Shown: positions 44,134 to 50,696 of the stretch, one piece after another
Layout of the letters: the number at the start of each line of letters is the position of its first letter
How positions within the stretch are numbered: the first letter of the stretch is position 1
Assembly (NCBI RefSeq): GCF_024362325.1
Contig: NZ_CP101497.1
Coordinates: 1,426,001 to 1,490,000, forward strand
DNA: 64,000 nucleotides
Origin: Microcella humidisoli
GTDB lineage: Bacteria; Actinomycetota; Actinomycetes; Actinomycetales; Microbacteriaceae
Direction: 5' to 3'
Made by a program: the position numbers and the translations under genes
The notes under the pieces: model-generated
Told to the model about the DNA's origin: nothing
Seen by the model: the letters and a program-made list of their open reading frames with translations, nothing else
Databases searched by the model: none

Positions 44134-46029
44134 GTGACCCGACTCTTCGCGCTCGTGCGCCGCTTCCCCCTCGTCGCCGTGACCGTCGCGATCGGGCTCG
44201 TCGCGGGCGTGCTCGTCGCCTCGGGACTCGAGCCGGCCGCGCGCTGGCTCATCTCGCTCTACGCGCTCGCGATCGCGGGCGTCGAGGCGGTGCGCATGAT
44301 CCGCGGGCTGCTGTCGAAGCAGTTCGGCCTCGACATCCTCGCCGTCACGGCGATCGTCAGCACGATCGTCGTGGGGGAGTACTGGGCGAGCCTCGTCATC
44401 GTGCTCATGCTCACGGGCGGAGAGGCCCTCGAGGTCGCGGCCGCGGGCCGCGCCCAGCGCGAGCTGCGCGCGCTTCTCGACCGGGTGCCTCAGCTCGCCC
44501 ACCGCATCGAGGCGGATGGTTCGATCGTCGATGTGGCCGCCGACCAGGTGCGCACGGGCGATCGTCTGCTCGTGCGGCCCGCCGAGATCGTGCCGGTCGA
44601 CGCCGAGCTCGCGAGCCCGCTCGGCGGCTTCGACGAGTCGTCGCTCACGGGCGAGAGCCTGCCGGTCGACAAGACCGCCGGAGACGCGGTGATGAGCGGC
44701 TCGGTCAACGGGCCGGTCGCCGTGGAGGTCGTGGCGACGGCCCTGGCCGCCGACTCGCAGTACCAGCGCATCGTCGAGCTGGTGCGCGACGCCGCGAGCA
44801 GCAAGGCCCCTCTCGTGCGGCTGGCCGACCGCTACGCCCTGCCGTTCACAGCCGTGTCGCTCGGCATCGCGGGTGTCGCCTGGGCCCTCAGCGGCGACCC
44901 GGTGCGCTTCGCCGAAGTGCTCGTCGTCGCCACCCCGTGCCCTCTGCTGATCGCCGCACCCGTGGCCTTCATGGGCGGCATGAGCAGTGCAGCCAAGCGC
45001 GGCATCGTCATGAAGAATGCCGGCTCGCTCGAGAAGCTCGCGCGGGCCCGCACCGTCGCCTTCGACAAGACGGGCACCCTCACCCTGGGTCGGCCGGTCG
45101 TCGTCGGAGCGCACGCCGAGCCGGGCTTCGAGCACGACGAGCTCGTGCAGCTCGTGGCCTCGGCCGAGCGCTACTCCTCGCACGTGCTCGCCGACTCGCT
45201 GCAGCAGGCGGCGGTCGACCGCGAGCTCGCGCTGCTCGACTCGACGGACGCGCGCGAGGTCCCCGCTCACGGCGTGATCGCCATGATCGGCGGTCGCGAG
45301 GTGGTCGTCGGCAAACCCGCGTTCGTCGGCGACCATGCGCCCGATGTGGTGCGGCGCACCGGTGAGAGCGGCGAGGCCGTGATCTACGCCGCGATCGACG
45401 GGCGGTTCGCGGGCGTCGTGGTGCTGCGGGATGCGGTGCGCGACGATGCCGCGGCCACTCTCGATGCCCTGCGCACCCTCGGGGTCACGCGCACGCTCAT
45501 GGTGACGGGCGACATCGCCGCGACCGCGGAACCGATCGCGGCGGGCCTCGGCATCAGCGAAGTGCACGCCGAGTGCCTCCCCGACGACAAGGTGCGCATC
45601 ATCCGCGAGGCGCAGCCGCGCCCGGTCGTCATGGTCGGCGATGGTGTCAACGACGCGCCCGTGCTCGCCGTGAGCGACGTCGGCATCGCCATGGGGGCGA
45701 GGGGCTCGACGGCCGCCAGCGAGTCGGCCGACGTCGTGATCCTGCTCGACGACATCTCGCGCGTCGCGCGTGCCGTCGCGATCGGGCAGCGCACCGTGCG
45801 CATCGCCCTGCAGAGCATCTGGCTCGGCATCGCGATCTCGATCGGGCTCATGCTCGTCGCGGCCGTCGGCCTGCTGCCGGCGATCGCGGGAGCCGCCCTG
45901 CAGGAAGTCGTCGACCTCGTGGCCATCCTCGGAGCCCTGCGTGCGGTGCGCGCCGGCGCGGCGCCCGTGCCGGGGCTCGATGTCATGCCGTCACGCCGCG
46001 GCGTGCCCGTGCTGCCGTCGGGTCAGTAG
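44134..46029 (+). CDS. P1B-type metal-transporting ATPase with TPCP motif
   Basis: A 631-residue heavy-metal-type P-ATPase with no N-terminal metal-binding domain. The transmembrane metal site reads VVATPCPLLIAAP (residues 264-276): TPCP rather than the CPC of copper or zinc pumps, as in the P1B-5 group (Nia-type, Ni/Fe). Other motifs: LTGESLPVDK actuator loop, DKTGTLT (Asp311), MVTGD, GDGVNDAPVL, and the last-helix AALQEVVDLVAILGALR. The nucleotide-domain HP motif is SSHVL, with Val replacing Pro. GTG start; TAGACC 6 nt upstream may be a second, leaderless promoter. No hemerythrin-like tail is present. The 3' end overlaps the convergent RnfD-FNR gene by 7 nt. Confidence 0.88.
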   Translation: MTRLFALVRRFPLVAVTVAIGLVAGVLVASGLEPAARWLISLYALAIAGVEAVRMIRGLLSKQFGLDILAVTAIVSTIVVGEYWASLVIVLMLTGGEALEVAAAGRAQRELRALLDRVPQLAHRIEADGSIVDVAADQVRTGDRLLVRPAEIVPVDAELASPLGGFDESSLTGESLPVDKTAGDAVMSGSVNGPVAVEVVATALAADSQYQRIVELVRDAASSKAPLVRLADRYALPFTAVSLGIAGVAWALSGDPVRFAEVLVVATPCPLLIAAPVAFMGGMSSAAKRGIVMKNAGSLEKLARARTVAFDKTGTLTLGRPVVVGAHAEPGFEHDELVQLVASAERYSSHVLADSLQQAAVDRELALLDSTDAREVPAHGVIAMIGGREVVVGKPAFVGDHAPDVVRRTGESGEAVIYAAIDGRFAGVVVLRDAVRDDAAATLDALRTLGVTRTLMVTGDIAATAEPIAAGLGISEVHAECLPDDKVRIIREAQPRPVVMVGDGVNDAPVLAVSDVGIAMGARGSTAASESADVVILLDDISRVARAVAIGQRTVRIALQSIWLGIAISIGLMLVAAVGLLPAIAGAALQEVVDLVAILGALRAVRAGAAPVPGLDVMPSRRGVPVLPSGQ

Positions 46030-47507
46030 CCGGCGAAGTAGTCCGTGCGCACGCGGCGGACTCCGGCCCGTCGGAGGGCCGTGCGGGCTGCCGCGACGAC
46101 GGAGGGCGCGCCGGAGACGTACCCGCGCCGCGCGGCGAGGTCGGGGATCAGCTCCCGGAGGGCATCCGCCGACAGCTGGTCGGGAGCCAGCTCGACGAGG
46201 CGCGTTCCGGCGGCGTCGATCACGTCTCGGTACAGCACCTCTCCTGGGTTCGACGAGATCACGACGAGCACGATGTCGCGCTGCTCGCCCCGCTCGGCGA
46301 GGCTCGCGAGCTGGCTCGCGAAGGGCGTGATGCCGATGCCCCCGGCGACCATGACGAGCGGGATGCCCGCATCGCGCGGCAGCAGGAAGTCGCCGGCCGT
46401 CTGCGTCGCCGCGATGCGCGTGCCCGGCTCGAGGGTGCCGAGGGCCGCCTTGAACGAGCTGCCGCCCTCGGGAGTGCGGATGCCGATCGTGAGACGCGGC
46501 TCGTCGGCGACCGCGCGCTCGGGGGCGGAGGCGATCGAGAAGGTTCGGCGCATGCCGCGGATGTCGGCAGCGTGCGGAAGATGCAGCTCGAGGTACTGCC
46601 CCGCCTCGAAGCGCAGGGGGCGGGACGGCTCGAAGCGGTACTCGGTCGCGAACGGCGACAGCGCCGCGCGGTCGACCAGCCGCACCGAGAAGCCCTCGCG
46701 ACGCGACACGGCGAAGGCCACGATGTTGCCGAGCACGAGGGCGAGCTCGGGCGAGGTGTAGATCGGTCCGAAGCCGAACGGCACCGAGAAGGCCACGGCG
46801 ACGACCGCGGCGGTCAGCCACTGCTGCCAGCGCCGTGGCGGCAGGGTCACGGGTTCGCTCAGCATGAAGCCCGCGAGGAAGACCACGGGGAACAGCTGCA
46901 GCACGGTCGTGATCGCGCCGAGCGGTGCCGTGCCTGTCACGACGAGCCGGATGCCGATGAGCACGATCGTGAGCCCGATGAAGATGAGCCCGACGTCGAG
47001 TCGGCGGGTGCGGTCGAGCAGCAGCAGAGCGCCGACCGCGACGGCGGGCAGCAGGGCGGGCGTCGCGACCCACCAGAACCCGACCCCCTGGCCGGCGTAG
47101 TAGCCGATGATGCCCGCGATGAGCACGCCCGTGGCGGCCGGGTTGAGCAAGTGGCGCCCGCGCCACACGATGAGGTACTTCGAGAGCGCCGCGAGCACGC
47201 CGGCGCCTGCTGCGGCGATGAGGCCCGGTGTGGTCAGGCTCGGCTGCACGATGCACGTGACGATGAGCGCCGTGATGACGCTCGACTCGCGGTGCGGCAC
47301 GACGTGCGCGAGCCGCGCGGCGATCTCGTTGGCGCCGAGCGTCGCGACGACGACGACGCCGAGCGTGCCGAGGATGGCGTATCCGTCGGGGCCGATCACG
47401 TCGAGGAACCCGAAGAGCACCGCCTGGGCGAGCAGGATCGCGAGCGTGATGGTCGCGAGCCGGTACATGCTCACGCGGCCGGTCAGCGCATCAACCCGTG
47501 CTCTCAT
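46023..47507 (-). CDS. RnfD/NqrB-like membrane domain fused to ferredoxin-NAD(P)+ reductase domain
   Basis: A 494-residue redox protein. Residues about 15-265 hold eight or nine helices with the NqrB/RnfD segment SKYLIVWRGRHLLNPAATG (109-127) and FLAGFMLSEPVTLPPRR. Residues about 272-494 are an FNR module: FAD-binding RTFSIAS (321-327), NAD(P)-binding AGGIGITPF (388-396), and the C-terminal GYVSGAPSVV and DYFAGY. It would take electrons from cytosolic NAD(P)H through FAD to an extracytoplasmic acceptor. Next to ApbE and two FMN-binding lipoproteins, these are the likely acceptors. In Rnf and Nqr complexes these parts are separate subunits. The ATG at 47507 overlaps the apbE stop by 4 nt. Confidence 0.85.
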   Translation of the reverse strand: MRARVDALTGRVSMYRLATITLAILLAQAVLFGFLDVIGPDGYAILGTLGVVVVATLGANEIAARLAHVVPHRESSVITALIVTCIVQPSLTTPGLIAAAGAGVLAALSKYLIVWRGRHLLNPAATGVLIAGIIGYYAGQGVGFWWVATPALLPAVAVGALLLLDRTRRLDVGLIFIGLTIVLIGIRLVVTGTAPLGAITTVLQLFPVVFLAGFMLSEPVTLPPRRWQQWLTAAVVAVAFSVPFGFGPIYTSPELALVLGNIVAFAVSRREGFSVRLVDRAALSPFATEYRFEPSRPLRFEAGQYLELHLPHAADIRGMRRTFSIASAPERAVADEPRLTIGIRTPEGGSSFKAALGTLEPGTRIAATQTAGDFLLPRDAGIPLVMVAGGIGITPFASQLASLAERGEQRDIVLVVISSNPGEVLYRDVIDAAGTRLVELAPDQLSADALRELIPDLAARRGYVSGAPSVVAAARTALRRAGVRRVRTDYFAGY

Positions 47508-48427
47508 GCGAACAGCTCCCCTCGAAACCCCGCGCTCGCCTCGAGGCGACCGTCGATGCTCAGTCGAACCCACTCGAACGAGAACGCTGCGGATAGACGC
47601 GCCGGATCGGTGAGAAACATGGCCGTGGCGAGGCCGTCGGCGACCAGTGCCGAATCGGCGACGACCCAGGTGGCGATGATGCCGTCGGCGACCGGCCGCC
47701 CGGTGACGGCGTCGACGATGTGGTGAAGCCCGGCACCCCACGAACGGCGAGTGAGCGCAGAGGCGCAGAGAGCGGCATCGTGCAGCTCGGCCACGCCGAC
47801 CGCCTTCGTCGGGTCGGCCGGGTTCTCGAGGGCGATCCGGATACTGCGCCCACCCCGTATGCGCACGTCGCCGCTCGCATCGACGAGCGTCTCGGTCACG
47901 CCGCGGGCGGCGAGCAGGTCGCCGACGAGGTCGACGAGATAGCCCTTGCCGGCGGCGCCGACGTCGAGCAGCACGGGAGCCACAGTGTCGAGCTGGAGCC
48001 CGTCGGCCGTGCGGCGCAGGGCGATCGAGTCCACCCAGCTCGGCGCCGGCAGGGGACCGCCGCTCGGGGTCAAGCGGTAGGCGGCGTCGTAGCCGAGGCG
48101 CTCGAGCGAGGCGCCGACGAGGGGGCTGAGCCGCGCATCCGTCAGCGCGTGCAGCTGCTCGTAGAGGTCGAGCAGCGGCTCGGCGTCGGCGGGCAGTCGC
48201 CACGAGCCGGCGTCGCGGGCGATGCGACTGACGAGCGAGTCGTCGCGGAACCTCGACCATTCGCGGTCGAAGCGCTCGATCCGCTCGAGCACGGCGGCGA
48301 GGTCGTCATCGGCGAGCGGCGCTCCGAGCGAGGCCACGGGGGTCTGCGCGCCGCCGACGCCGATGCGCCACGGCGCCCCGATCGCGTCGAAGCTCGTGGG
48401 CGCCGCGGCCTCAGCTCTCGAGCGCAT
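47504..48427 (-). CDS. apbE: FAD:protein FMN transferase (ApbE)
   Basis: A 307-residue ApbE-fold enzyme that attaches FMN covalently to Ser/Thr of target proteins using FAD. Visible family blocks: EWSRFRDDSLVSRIARDAG, LSPLVGASLERLGYD, LLDVGAAGKGYLVDLV, VDASGDVRIRGG, HHIVDAVTGRPVADG and ATWVVADSALVADGLATAMF with the Mg-binding Asp. No signal peptide or lipobox is evident from the ATG at 48427, unlike many ApbE lipoproteins. The start lies 17 nt inside the 3' end of the upstream FMN-binding gene, so the two are coupled. Its substrates are probably the two neighbouring lipoproteins. Confidence 0.9.
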   Translation of the reverse strand: MRSRAEAAAPTSFDAIGAPWRIGVGGAQTPVASLGAPLADDDLAAVLERIERFDREWSRFRDDSLVSRIARDAGSWRLPADAEPLLDLYEQLHALTDARLSPLVGASLERLGYDAAYRLTPSGGPLPAPSWVDSIALRRTADGLQLDTVAPVLLDVGAAGKGYLVDLVGDLLAARGVTETLVDASGDVRIRGGRSIRIALENPADPTKAVGVAELHDAALCASALTRRSWGAGLHHIVDAVTGRPVADGIIATWVVADSALVADGLATAMFLTDPARLSAAFSFEWVRLSIDGRLEASAGFRGELFA

Positions 48428-48845
48428 CCGCCTTGATCGCCGTGAGGGCCTCGCGGAAGCCGTTGCTCGTGAGCGAGGAGCCCGCGACGACGGTGACATC
48501 GAGGGTGTCGATGTCCTCCCCGATCACGAGGGCGCCGATGCCGTCGGCGAACTGGCCCTGATAGTTGGCCGTCGTCGGGTTGTTGGGGTTGACCGTGATC
48601 TCGACGTCGGTGACGAGGTCGTTCTCGAGCTCGATCACGACGATGATGTTCTCGTTGCCGTTGGGCGACTGGTAGGTGCCGTTCGCCTGGTAGGTGCCGT
48701 CGCGGTAGCTCGCGTCGACGGGCACGTCGGTGCCGGCCGCGGTCGAGCACCCCGTGAGGGTGCCGAGCAGGGCGGCGGTGGCGCCGATCGGGGCGGCGAT
48801 GCGCGCGGCAGTCGTGCGGGCGCTCGTGGTCAGCATGCGGGTCAT
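48411..48845 (-). CDS. FMN-binding domain lipoprotein 1
   Basis: A 144-residue lipoprotein: Arg-containing signal, lipobox LTGC with Cys33, then an FMN-binding domain of the NqrC/RnfG type. DASYRDGTYQANGTYQSPNG and LVTDVEITVNPNNPTTANYQ are typical of this family. The ApbE flavinylation site, usually S/T-G-A-T/S followed by LTS, appears as AGSSLTSNGF (121-130), so Ser124 is the predicted FMN attachment residue. GGAGA precedes the ATG at 48845. Very similar to lipoprotein 2 upstream; together they look like a duplicated extracellular flavin carrier. Confidence 0.88.
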   Translation of the reverse strand: MTRMLTTSARTTAARIAAPIGATAALLGTLTGCSTAAGTDVPVDASYRDGTYQANGTYQSPNGNENIIVVIELENDLVTDVEITVNPNNPTTANYQGQFADGIGALVIGEDIDTLDVTVVAGSSLTSNGFREALTAIKADALES

Positions 48846-48976
48846 CGGTTCTCCAGGGCGTCGCGGGGTTCAGGCGGCACTCAGCCGACGGTCATCAGCC
48901 TGTCGGGTCTCGGTGGGTATTCGCTGTACTCGCCTCAAGGGTTTGCCGCATGCCGCGCACGCGGCTCTCGACGGGC

Positions 48977-49444
48977 TCAGCTCTCGACCGCCTCCGCCTT
49001 GATCGACGCCAGCGCCGCACGGAACCCGGTGGAGGTGAGCGACGACCCCGCGACGACGGTGACGTCGAGCGAGTCGATGTCCTGCCCGACGACGAGCTCG
49101 CCGATGCCGCTCGCGAACTCCGCCTGGTAGGTCGAGCTGGTCGCGCTCGTGGGGTACAGGCCGATCTCGACGTCGGTCACGATGTCGTTCTCGAGCTGCA
49201 GCACGACGATGATGCTCTCGCCGCCCGCGGGCGATTGGTAGGCGCCATCGGCGCGATAGCTGCCGTCGCGGTAGCTGGCGTCGACGGCGGCCGTCTCCCG
49301 CGTCGCGTCGTCGGCGGGTTCCGGTGCGGCGACCTGCTCGGCGGCGGCCGCGCACCCGGTGAGGGTGCCGAGCAGCGCGAGGGTGCTGAGGGGCACTGCC
49401 GTGCCGATGCTCCCGGCGCGGGCTGTCCTCGTCCTCCGGTTCAC
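48977..49444 (-). CDS. FMN-binding domain lipoprotein 2
   Basis: A 155-residue paralogue of the next gene: lipobox LTGC with Cys31, an extra Ala/Glu/Pro linker (EQVAAPEPADDATRET), the same VDASYRDGSYRADGAYQSP start of the FMN domain, and AGSSLTSTGF (132-141) with Ser135 as the predicted flavinylation residue. GTG start at 49444 with GAGGAG upstream. It is the first gene of the flavin operon; 131 bp separate it from lipoprotein 1, leaving room for processing or a second promoter, though none is clear. Confidence 0.88.
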   Translation of the reverse strand: MNRRTRTARAGSIGTAVPLSTLALLGTLTGCAAAAEQVAAPEPADDATRETAAVDASYRDGSYRADGAYQSPAGGESIIVVLQLENDIVTDVEIGLYPTSATSSTYQAEFASGIGELVVGQDIDSLDVTVVAGSSLTSTGFRAALASIKAEAVES

Positions 49445-49553: not shown

Positions 49554-50696
49554 ATGACGATGGATGTCGACAGCTTCGGGCCGCGCCGCGTGCTGCGTCC
49601 GAGCGTCAAGGTGCTGCCAGAGCAGGCCCGGGCGCACAACCGATCCCTCGTGCTGCAGACCCTCTACCGCTCGGGCCCCTTGAGCCGTGCCGACCTCGCC
49701 CGCGAGACGGCCCTCACGCGCGTGACCGTGGGCGACCTCGTCGCCGAGCTCATCGACGAGCGGCTCGCGCTCGAGCTCGGCACGCGTGTCGACGCGAGCC
49801 GCCCCGGCAAGCCCGCGACACTGCTCGACCTCAACCGCGACGGCCACCGCATCGTCGGCATCGACCTCGGCGATACCGAGGTGTTCCGCGGCGCCCTCAT
49901 CGACCTCGACGGCATGATCCTCGAGCGTCGCGAGGTCGATGCGCGCGGCCTCGTGGGCGAGGACGCCGCGGCCGCGGCCCTCGCCCTCACCCGCCAACTG
50001 ACGGCGCTCGCCGACCGGCCCGTGCTCGGCGTCGGCATCGGATCGCCCGGCATCGTCGACCTCGCCGGATGCGTGCTCACGGCCCCCAACCGCGGCTGGA
50101 GCGATCTGCCCCTGCAGGCGCGCCTGCAGGCCGAGCTCGGGCTGCCCGTGATCGTCGCCAACGACGCGAACGCCGCGGCGCTCGCCGAGTACGGCTTCGG
50201 CGGAGCATCCGCCGACCTCATGCTGGTGATGATCGGCTACGGCGTCGGCGCGGGGCTGCTGCTCGACGGCACTCCGTTGTTCGGCTCGCGCTTCGCGGCC
50301 GGCGAGATCGGGCACGTTGTCGTCGGCACCGATGGCGGCGAGGCCTGCGCGTGCGGCAAGCACGGCTGCCTCGAGACCTGGCTCGCGGTGCCGCGACTGC
50401 GGGCGCGCCTCGCCGCGGGCGAGCCGCGCGAGGCGGTGCTGCGCCAGGCCGGCGAGCGTCTCGGCATCGCCCTGGCCCCCATCGTCGTGGCCCTCAATCT
50501 CAGCGAGGTGGTGCTCTCGGGCCCCGTCGAGCTGCTGGACGGGAGCCTCGCTGAGGCGACCGTCGACACCCTCCGTCAGCGCACCATGGAGCAGTTCCAC
50601 GGCGACCTGACGGTGCGGTTGACCACGCTCGGAGACGACATCGTGATGCGCGGCGCTGCCGTCATGGTGCTCTCCGCGCGCCTCGGGGTCTCGTGA
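49554..50696 (+). CDS. ROK family transcriptional regulator (NagC/XylR-like)
   Basis: A 380-residue regulator with an N-terminal winged helix (NRSLVLQTLYRSGPLSRADLARETALTRVTVGDLV) and a C-terminal ROK sugar-kinase fold: GIDLGDTEVFRGALIDL, GVGIGSPGIVD, VANDANAAALAEYGFG and the zinc motif CACGKHGCLE. Such proteins bind sugar or sugar phosphate and release operator DNA. It heads the aminosugar locus, 68 nt before the solute-binding protein, and probably senses N-acetylglucosamine or a phosphate thereof. A palindrome over its own promoter suggests autoregulation; none identical is seen before the transporter genes. Confidence 0.88.
   Translation: MTMDVDSFGPRRVLRPSVKVLPEQARAHNRSLVLQTLYRSGPLSRADLARETALTRVTVGDLVAELIDERLALELGTRVDASRPGKPATLLDLNRDGHRIVGIDLGDTEVFRGALIDLDGMILERREVDARGLVGEDAAAAALALTRQLTALADRPVLGVGIGSPGIVDLAGCVLTAPNRGWSDLPLQARLQAELGLPVIVANDANAAALAEYGFGGASADLMLVMIGYGVGAGLLLDGTPLFGSRFAAGEIGHVVVGTDGGEACACGKHGCLETWLAVPRLRARLAAGEPREAVLRQAGERLGIALAPIVVALNLSEVVLSGPVELLDGSLAEATVDTLRQRTMEQFHGDLTVRLTTLGDDIVMRGAAVMVLSARLGVS

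Follow-up and report, generated by a model that had tools for sequence, protein, structure and literature searches.

Among predicted flavin-dependent electron-transfer systems, the NQR/RNF-like class is defined by a single protein that joins an NqrB/RnfD domain to a NAD-binding domain (PF00175) and is encoded near genes for the flavin transferase ApbE or for FMN_bind proteins (PMC8238504, Meheust et al. 2021). That survey lists 127 such clusters, mainly in Actinobacteria and the Candidate Phyla Radiation (CPR), proposes that they work unidirectionally, and notes that six contain the iron transporter VIT1. The complex of Ktedonobacter has since been modelled, and the site for covalently bound flavin mononucleotide (FMN) is missing from its membrane domain (PMC11334425, Huang et al. 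2024). No experimental study of the class was found in the open-licence full-text literature. The locus discussed here lies in a 64,000-nucleotide stretch of Microcella humidisoli (NCBI RefSeq assembly GCF_024362325.1, contig NZ_CP101497.1, positions 1,426,001 to 1,490,000), which is called the window and whose numbering is used throughout. The original prediction, made from these letters alone, placed four adjacent minus-strand genes at 46023..49444 (two FMN-binding lipoproteins, ApbE and an RnfD/NqrB-FNR fusion), and the genes are real and correctly placed. It also regarded the fusion as an unfamiliar system, which must be given up: this architecture is already in print as the defining feature of the class (PMC8238504; PMC11334425), and the operon is most likely an ordinary, well-conserved member of these published flavinylation systems.

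The fusion (46023..47507, minus strand, 494 amino acids) consists of an RnfD/NqrB-like membrane domain (46704..47507, residues 1-268) followed by an FNR module for flavin adenine dinucleotide (FAD) and NAD(P)H (46026..46703, residues 269-494) that carries R-x-F-S and GGIG motifs. It fits the NqrB/RnfD plus PF00175 class both by a profile of its relatives and by fold, with the C-terminal NAD-binding domain found in the same protein as the membrane domain, so that the predicted domain calls and single-chain fusion are borne out. Specifically, the membrane domain resembles RnfD and NqrB, the FAD domain NqrF, and the small carrier RnfG and NqrC; when the whole fusion was used, RnfD itself was absent from the 60 PDB matches listed for the profile and from the best 50 of Foldseek, where the FNR half fills the list. 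Residues invariant across 22 diverse membrane domains include K110, H119, N122, P123, W145, W146, E218, P219 and T221, and these may shape flavin pockets. The pattern [ST]GA[ST] was not found within the 494 residues, in agreement with a class whose membrane domain has no covalent-FMN site. The class further calls for ApbE or FMN_bind genes within five genes, at least one of them with a signal, and here ApbE is adjacent and both carriers have a lipobox. Carrier 1 (48977..49444, minus strand, 155 amino acids from a GTG start, lipobox Cys31) and carrier 2 (48411..48845, minus strand, 144 amino acids, lipobox Cys33) are FMN_bind-type lipoproteins, PF04205 being matched by 11 of 21 aligned carriers and by carrier 2 at E 0.01.

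The operon shares with the published members a single protein in which a NAD-binding module follows the NqrB/RnfD membrane domain at the C-terminal end, with ApbE and an extracytosolic FMN_bind subunit encoded alongside. It differs in its two tandem carriers, in their use of xGSS rather than [S/T]GA[S/T], and in an ApbE that lacks an export signal, a feature of which no mention was found in main-text sections of the class papers, supplements and figures aside. With the RNF complex it shares the RnfD membrane-domain fold and the RnfG carrier fold, and with Na+-NQR the NqrB-like membrane fold, an NqrC-like carrier and an NqrF-like FAD domain. However, the NAD(P)H module is fused on, in contrast to RNF, and there is neither a recognized NqrD/E homologue nor a covalent-FMN motif in the membrane domain, in contrast to Na+-NQR. 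The window genome (99.98% complete) encodes one RnfD/NqrB-like domain and gave no match at E <= 0.1 to PF02508 (RnfA/E, NqrD/E), which is matched in 5 of 14 control genomes; the operon is therefore neither RNF nor NQR. The predicted absence of Rnf and Nqr subunits thus stands for RnfA/E and NqrD/E, the search not having extended to RnfB, RnfC and NqrA. The flavin-based extracellular electron transfer of Listeria (FmnB, PplA, Ndh2) likewise serves surface FMN lipoproteins with an ApbE-type enzyme and cytosolic NADH, its membrane route being Ndh2 and quinone. The window operon also has an ApbE-type enzyme and predicted FMN lipoproteins, with a different membrane route and a transferase without a signal, whereas FmnB catalyses extracytosolic flavinylation (PMC9973259).

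The nearest named relatives are Microcella. In a survey of 60 genomes (the window's own and 59 others), with a fusion counted when at least 450 residues aligned, it was present in the window genome and 21 of 25 congeners (of the other four, three have C-terminal pieces only and one lacks it), and in 6 of 11 further genomes of the family and 2 of 23 further genomes of the order; across the phylum, 5 of 296 genomes match at E <= 1e-30, the window's own included. A scan of named genomes confirmed at least 394 relatives, and the best 80 of the 394, which were kept, include Microcella, Agreia, Leifsonia, Herbiconiux, Arthrobacter, Microbacterium, Cellulosimicrobium, Nakamurella, Nocardioides, Aeromicrobium, Dictyobacter and several CPR bins. 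Altogether 113 loci (numbered L) were compared, 110 of them distinct; the duplicates (L163, L099, L098) are included in counts out of 113 loci, 106 carriers and 102 motif hits, and removed from those out of 110. ApbE lies near the fusion in 99 distinct loci, a carrier in 96 and both in 92, and in 90 of these 92 the order is carrier-ApbE-fusion, in keeping with the prediction that the genes are conserved together. The exceptions are the CPR locus L173 and L060, which has an apparent frameshift. An ApbE-RnfD-FNR triple fusion was considered for L060 and rejected: its linker reads as the fusion N-terminus in another frame, and is therefore probably an assembly or sequencing frameshift. In some CPR loci (L173, L170) ApbE lies downstream of the fusion, as does the carrier in L173. 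One contig labelled Stenotrophomonas maltophilia (L138, JACEFY010000060.1) carries the operon amid Microbacterium hits and is probably a contamination of that assembly.

From the computed domain identities, folds, gene order, conservation, motif and missing ApbE signal, we infer cofactors, electron direction, flavinylation site and acceptor as follows. Most probably the operon encodes a one-way, single-chain NAD(P)H dehydrogenase that feeds surface flavin lipoproteins whose precursors are flavinylated before export. On the cytosolic side the FNR module would take hydride from NAD(P)H onto FAD, and electrons would then cross the membrane via flavin held non-covalently in the RnfD/NqrB-like domain, which would pass them to FMN covalently bound on the small surface lipoproteins; these may reduce a non-dedicated external acceptor such as Fe(III), O2 or another redox partner. 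No iron-sulfur or heme centre was recognized in the operon unit, so the crossing would have to rely on flavin alone. ApbE would attach FMN to the second serine of GSS in the cytosol, where FAD is, and the modified chain would then be exported by Sec. This route from NAD(P)H through FAD and the membrane to surface flavin, which the original prediction had also drawn, is supported and is the same as the published proposal (PMC8238504, PMC11334425).

The predicted place of flavinylation depends on ApbE (47504..48427, minus strand), which matches PF02424 at E 6.5e-39 and solved FAD:protein FMN transferases at a best E of 8.3e-19. It has 307 amino acids from the likelier ATG at 48427 and 331 from the longest open ATG at 48499, with no other early in-frame start and no recognizable signal peptide. 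The signal test was a hydrophobicity rule (14 residues, Kyte-Doolittle) rather than SignalP. It was applied to 102 ApbE rows (99 distinct), seven of which could not be anchored to the conserved core and were left out (L173, L156, L035, L098, L150, L165, L160); re-placing the remaining 95 (93 distinct) against a homology alignment gave agreement. With every in-frame start within 80 codons considered, all 95 lack a hydrophobic N-terminus: the window ApbE scores -0.95 and the highest 1.33, against 2.23 for E. coli ApbE and at least 1.3 for 105 of 106 carriers (0.72 for a carrier of L053). In 38 of the 95, moreover, fewer than 25 open codons precede the conserved core. A class-wide sample of 30 gave the same picture, the 27 readable ApbEs having no hydrophobic N-terminus and no score above 1.31 (L180, L188 and L203 were out of frame and uncounted). 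Because ApbE shows no export signal, flavinylation is most likely cytosolic and precedes Sec. A second, exported ApbE cannot explain the missing signal in the genus, since in 14 of 19 good-quality genus genomes the cluster ApbE is the sole match over the cut-off, with scores of at most 0.64 in all 14.

Against this stands the possibility that the carriers are flavinylated outside the cell by an ApbE exported without a recognizable signal or together with a partner. Most characterized ApbEs are exported lipoproteins, and periplasmic location is essential in Salmonella (PMC12052999); the papers on the NQR/RNF-like class treat the carrier side as extracytosolic (PMC8238504, PMC11334425), and one study, on a multi-FMN protein from Streptomyces, assumes that flavin transferases are extracellular (PMC10339131). 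Cytosolic examples exist, however, such as one that serves a soluble fumarate reductase (PMC12052999). Tat export of the carriers was rejected: a loose Tat-like RR pattern occurs in 15 of 106 carriers and is missing from the window's, so that a Tat hitch-hike of ApbE is not suggested either. Given this, the uniformly signal-less N-termini of both samples and the short leaders before the core, outside flavinylation is unlikely. The window genome also has a second ApbE, again without a signal; the gene directly after it encodes a membrane reductase that has FAD/NAD and [2Fe-2S] domains and resembles MsrQ (L064 5950-8411; genome 1082745-1085206).

The attachment motif is the other uncertain element. 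Its canonical form is D-x-x-[S/T]-G-A-[S/T], these seven residues suffice for ApbE, and in a Klebsiella pneumoniae model protein changing G or A approximately halved flavinylation, with a minor effect of changing D (PMC12052999). Since the seven residues suffice, an unfolded precursor could be the substrate. Both window carriers read T-V-V-A-G-S-S instead; the predicted FMN attachment residues are Ser135 of carrier 1 (49040..49042, minus strand), the second serine of VAGSSLTS, and Ser124 of carrier 2 (48474..48476, minus strand) at the same motif position. The usual departures among the carriers are T or S for D, A for S/T and S for A. Specifically, 104 carriers of distinct loci have AGSS (79), SGSS (14), GGSS (2), ASSS (1) or GA[S/T] (8), and of 102 motif hits, 82 have T or S at the D position and 16 have D. 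In a weak profile alignment (E 0.053), VAGSSLTS pairs with VSGATYTS (SGAT) of 8p2a. These departures at the D, S/T and A positions leave room for carriers that have no covalent flavin: GSS would then bind flavin without a covalent bond, or would not bind it, and ApbE would serve another substrate. Yet GSS is invariant in the 21-row carrier alignment, xGSS occurs in 95 of 104 carriers with GA[S/T] in 8 of the other 9, and ApbE and carrier stand together in the 92 loci counted above. In addition, the ApbE is usually the only one in good-quality genus genomes, and the two carriers are the only ones found in the window genome, where neither a PF04205 search nor a carrier profile returned a further one over the cut-off. 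An unmodified carrier is thus quite improbable. The assumption, made in the original prediction, of carriers flavinylated by ApbE at the surface is weaker than was supposed, with a non-canonical motif and a signal-less transferase as its weak points. That the operon is a partial, decaying or regulatory remnant of RNF or NQR, for instance a device like the SoxR reducer rather than an autonomous route, is very hard to believe: RnfD-like and RnfG/NqrC-like folds are common to both complexes, but here the membrane domain is fused to its own FNR module, the unit is conserved in Actinobacteria and the fusion recurs in Chloroflexi and CPR genomes, K110, H119, N122 and E218 are kept, and PF02508 has no match in the genome, in a search that did not extend to RnfB, RnfC and NqrA.

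Several observations weigh against a dehydrogenase that feeds carriers flavinylated before export. The window's own fusion and carriers fall below Pfam thresholds, and the motif deviates at three positions. That ApbE should be cytosolic while the carriers are exported conflicts with the usual view of extracytosolic flavinylation. Crossing the bilayer without an iron-sulfur or heme centre is the main physical puzzle. No ApbE and/or carrier was recognized in the available DNA of 18 of the 110 loci, several of which lie at contig edges or come from CPR genomes. Finally, 7 of 110 fusions do contain [ST]GA[ST] (L046, L047, L048, L050, L061, L153, L166). In four distinct congeners (L046, L047, L048 = L163, L050) the fusion has a TGATPL loop where the window has TGTAPL (residue 191 on). 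This loop was rejected as a covalent FMN site: a profile alignment to RnfD, in which the RnfD stretch holding the covalent site was not significantly aligned, places it just before the (D/E)P motif. We take the RnfD site to lie elsewhere, and the resemblance to the RnfD/NqrB attachment motif is apparently due to chance.

The original prediction had counted two paralogous carriers as part of the system, whereas they are a local duplication and do not define it: two carriers occur in only 8 of 96 carrier-bearing loci. In the carrier tree, carrier 2 groups with the single carriers of close congeners. One supported clade (99/95) unites the upstream carriers of the window, L036 and L037, with L038 joining at 98/95, and it branches from among the downstream carriers of that lineage. 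The second carriers of L051-L053 group apart (100/100), and a third case is seen in L111 (Schumannella). The tree is most simply read as showing two or three duplications, each of them local, although one older duplication followed by losses is a possible alternative. The second carrier would then have arisen by duplication within the lineage and would have the same predicted role, both window carriers keeping the same motif; a division of labour between the two is possible. A lipobox is present in 94 of 106 carriers. The upstream carrier of L053 (9979-10434) has neither a lipobox nor a hydrophobic signal region and yet keeps FMN_bind and GSS, and may be decaying, mis-assembled or relocated. 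A very large predicted open reading frame (~1060-1270 amino acids) lies beside the carrier in some Microcella (L051 1981-5790; L052 1966-5394; L047 2032-5478; L048 9954-13145), in two cases between two carriers.

The genes of the operon are tightly packed: 131 bases separate carrier 1 from carrier 2, the likelier ApbE start lies inside the end of carrier 2, and the fusion ATG overlaps the ApbE stop codon. A convergent heavy-metal P-type ATPase (44134-46029, plus strand; TIGR01525 at E 1e-150, and the cadmium family TIGR01512 at E 1.4e-139) shares 7 bases (46023-46029) with the 3′ end of the fusion, and the divergent neighbour at 49554 (plus strand) is presumably a ROK-family-like gene. These flanking genes recur in the genus, 18 of the 21 loci in the genus having a close homologue of the ATPase near the fusion. 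In eight family or order stretches (~15 kb each) they were not found, the isocitrate dehydrogenase in L058 excepted, and the ATPase was in none of the eight. The functional unit is therefore three genes. No conserved redox partner emerged: in 14 of 64 named loci with both partners a co-directional gene follows within 250 bp, and in 25 one lies close upstream, and Pfam scans of 20 of the 39 neighbour entries (one of which, in L173, is the fusion itself) found PRPP synthetase five times, a cation P-type ATPase twice, an FAD amine-oxidase-like protein once (L147), Hsp20, RuvC and others, none of them recurrent as a redox partner. Sigma-70 promoters and terminators were looked for and none was found. 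Iron regulation was rejected: with the DNA ahead of the first carrier compared in 29 loci, the best DtxR/IdeR-like box matches at 12 of 19 positions (L050), a level reached six times within the 64-kb window.

With one protein, one transferase and one small carrier, the operon comes close to the smallest form that transmembrane flavin electron transfer can take, and it is therefore a good model for flavin-only electron movement across a membrane. The flavinylation question is the part of it that deserves experiments: with a signal-less ApbE and no other ApbE in 14 of 19 good-quality genus genomes, the assumption of extracytosolic flavinylation becomes directly testable. A wider, tentative suggestion, which we would hold a little more doubtful than not, is that Actinobacteria pair a signal-less cytosolic ApbE with a divergent [A/S]GSS motif and thread FMN-loaded lipoprotein precursors through Sec. 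If true, the cell would not need to export FAD, and ‘extracytosolic flavinylation’ would not be extracytosolic in much of a major phylum.

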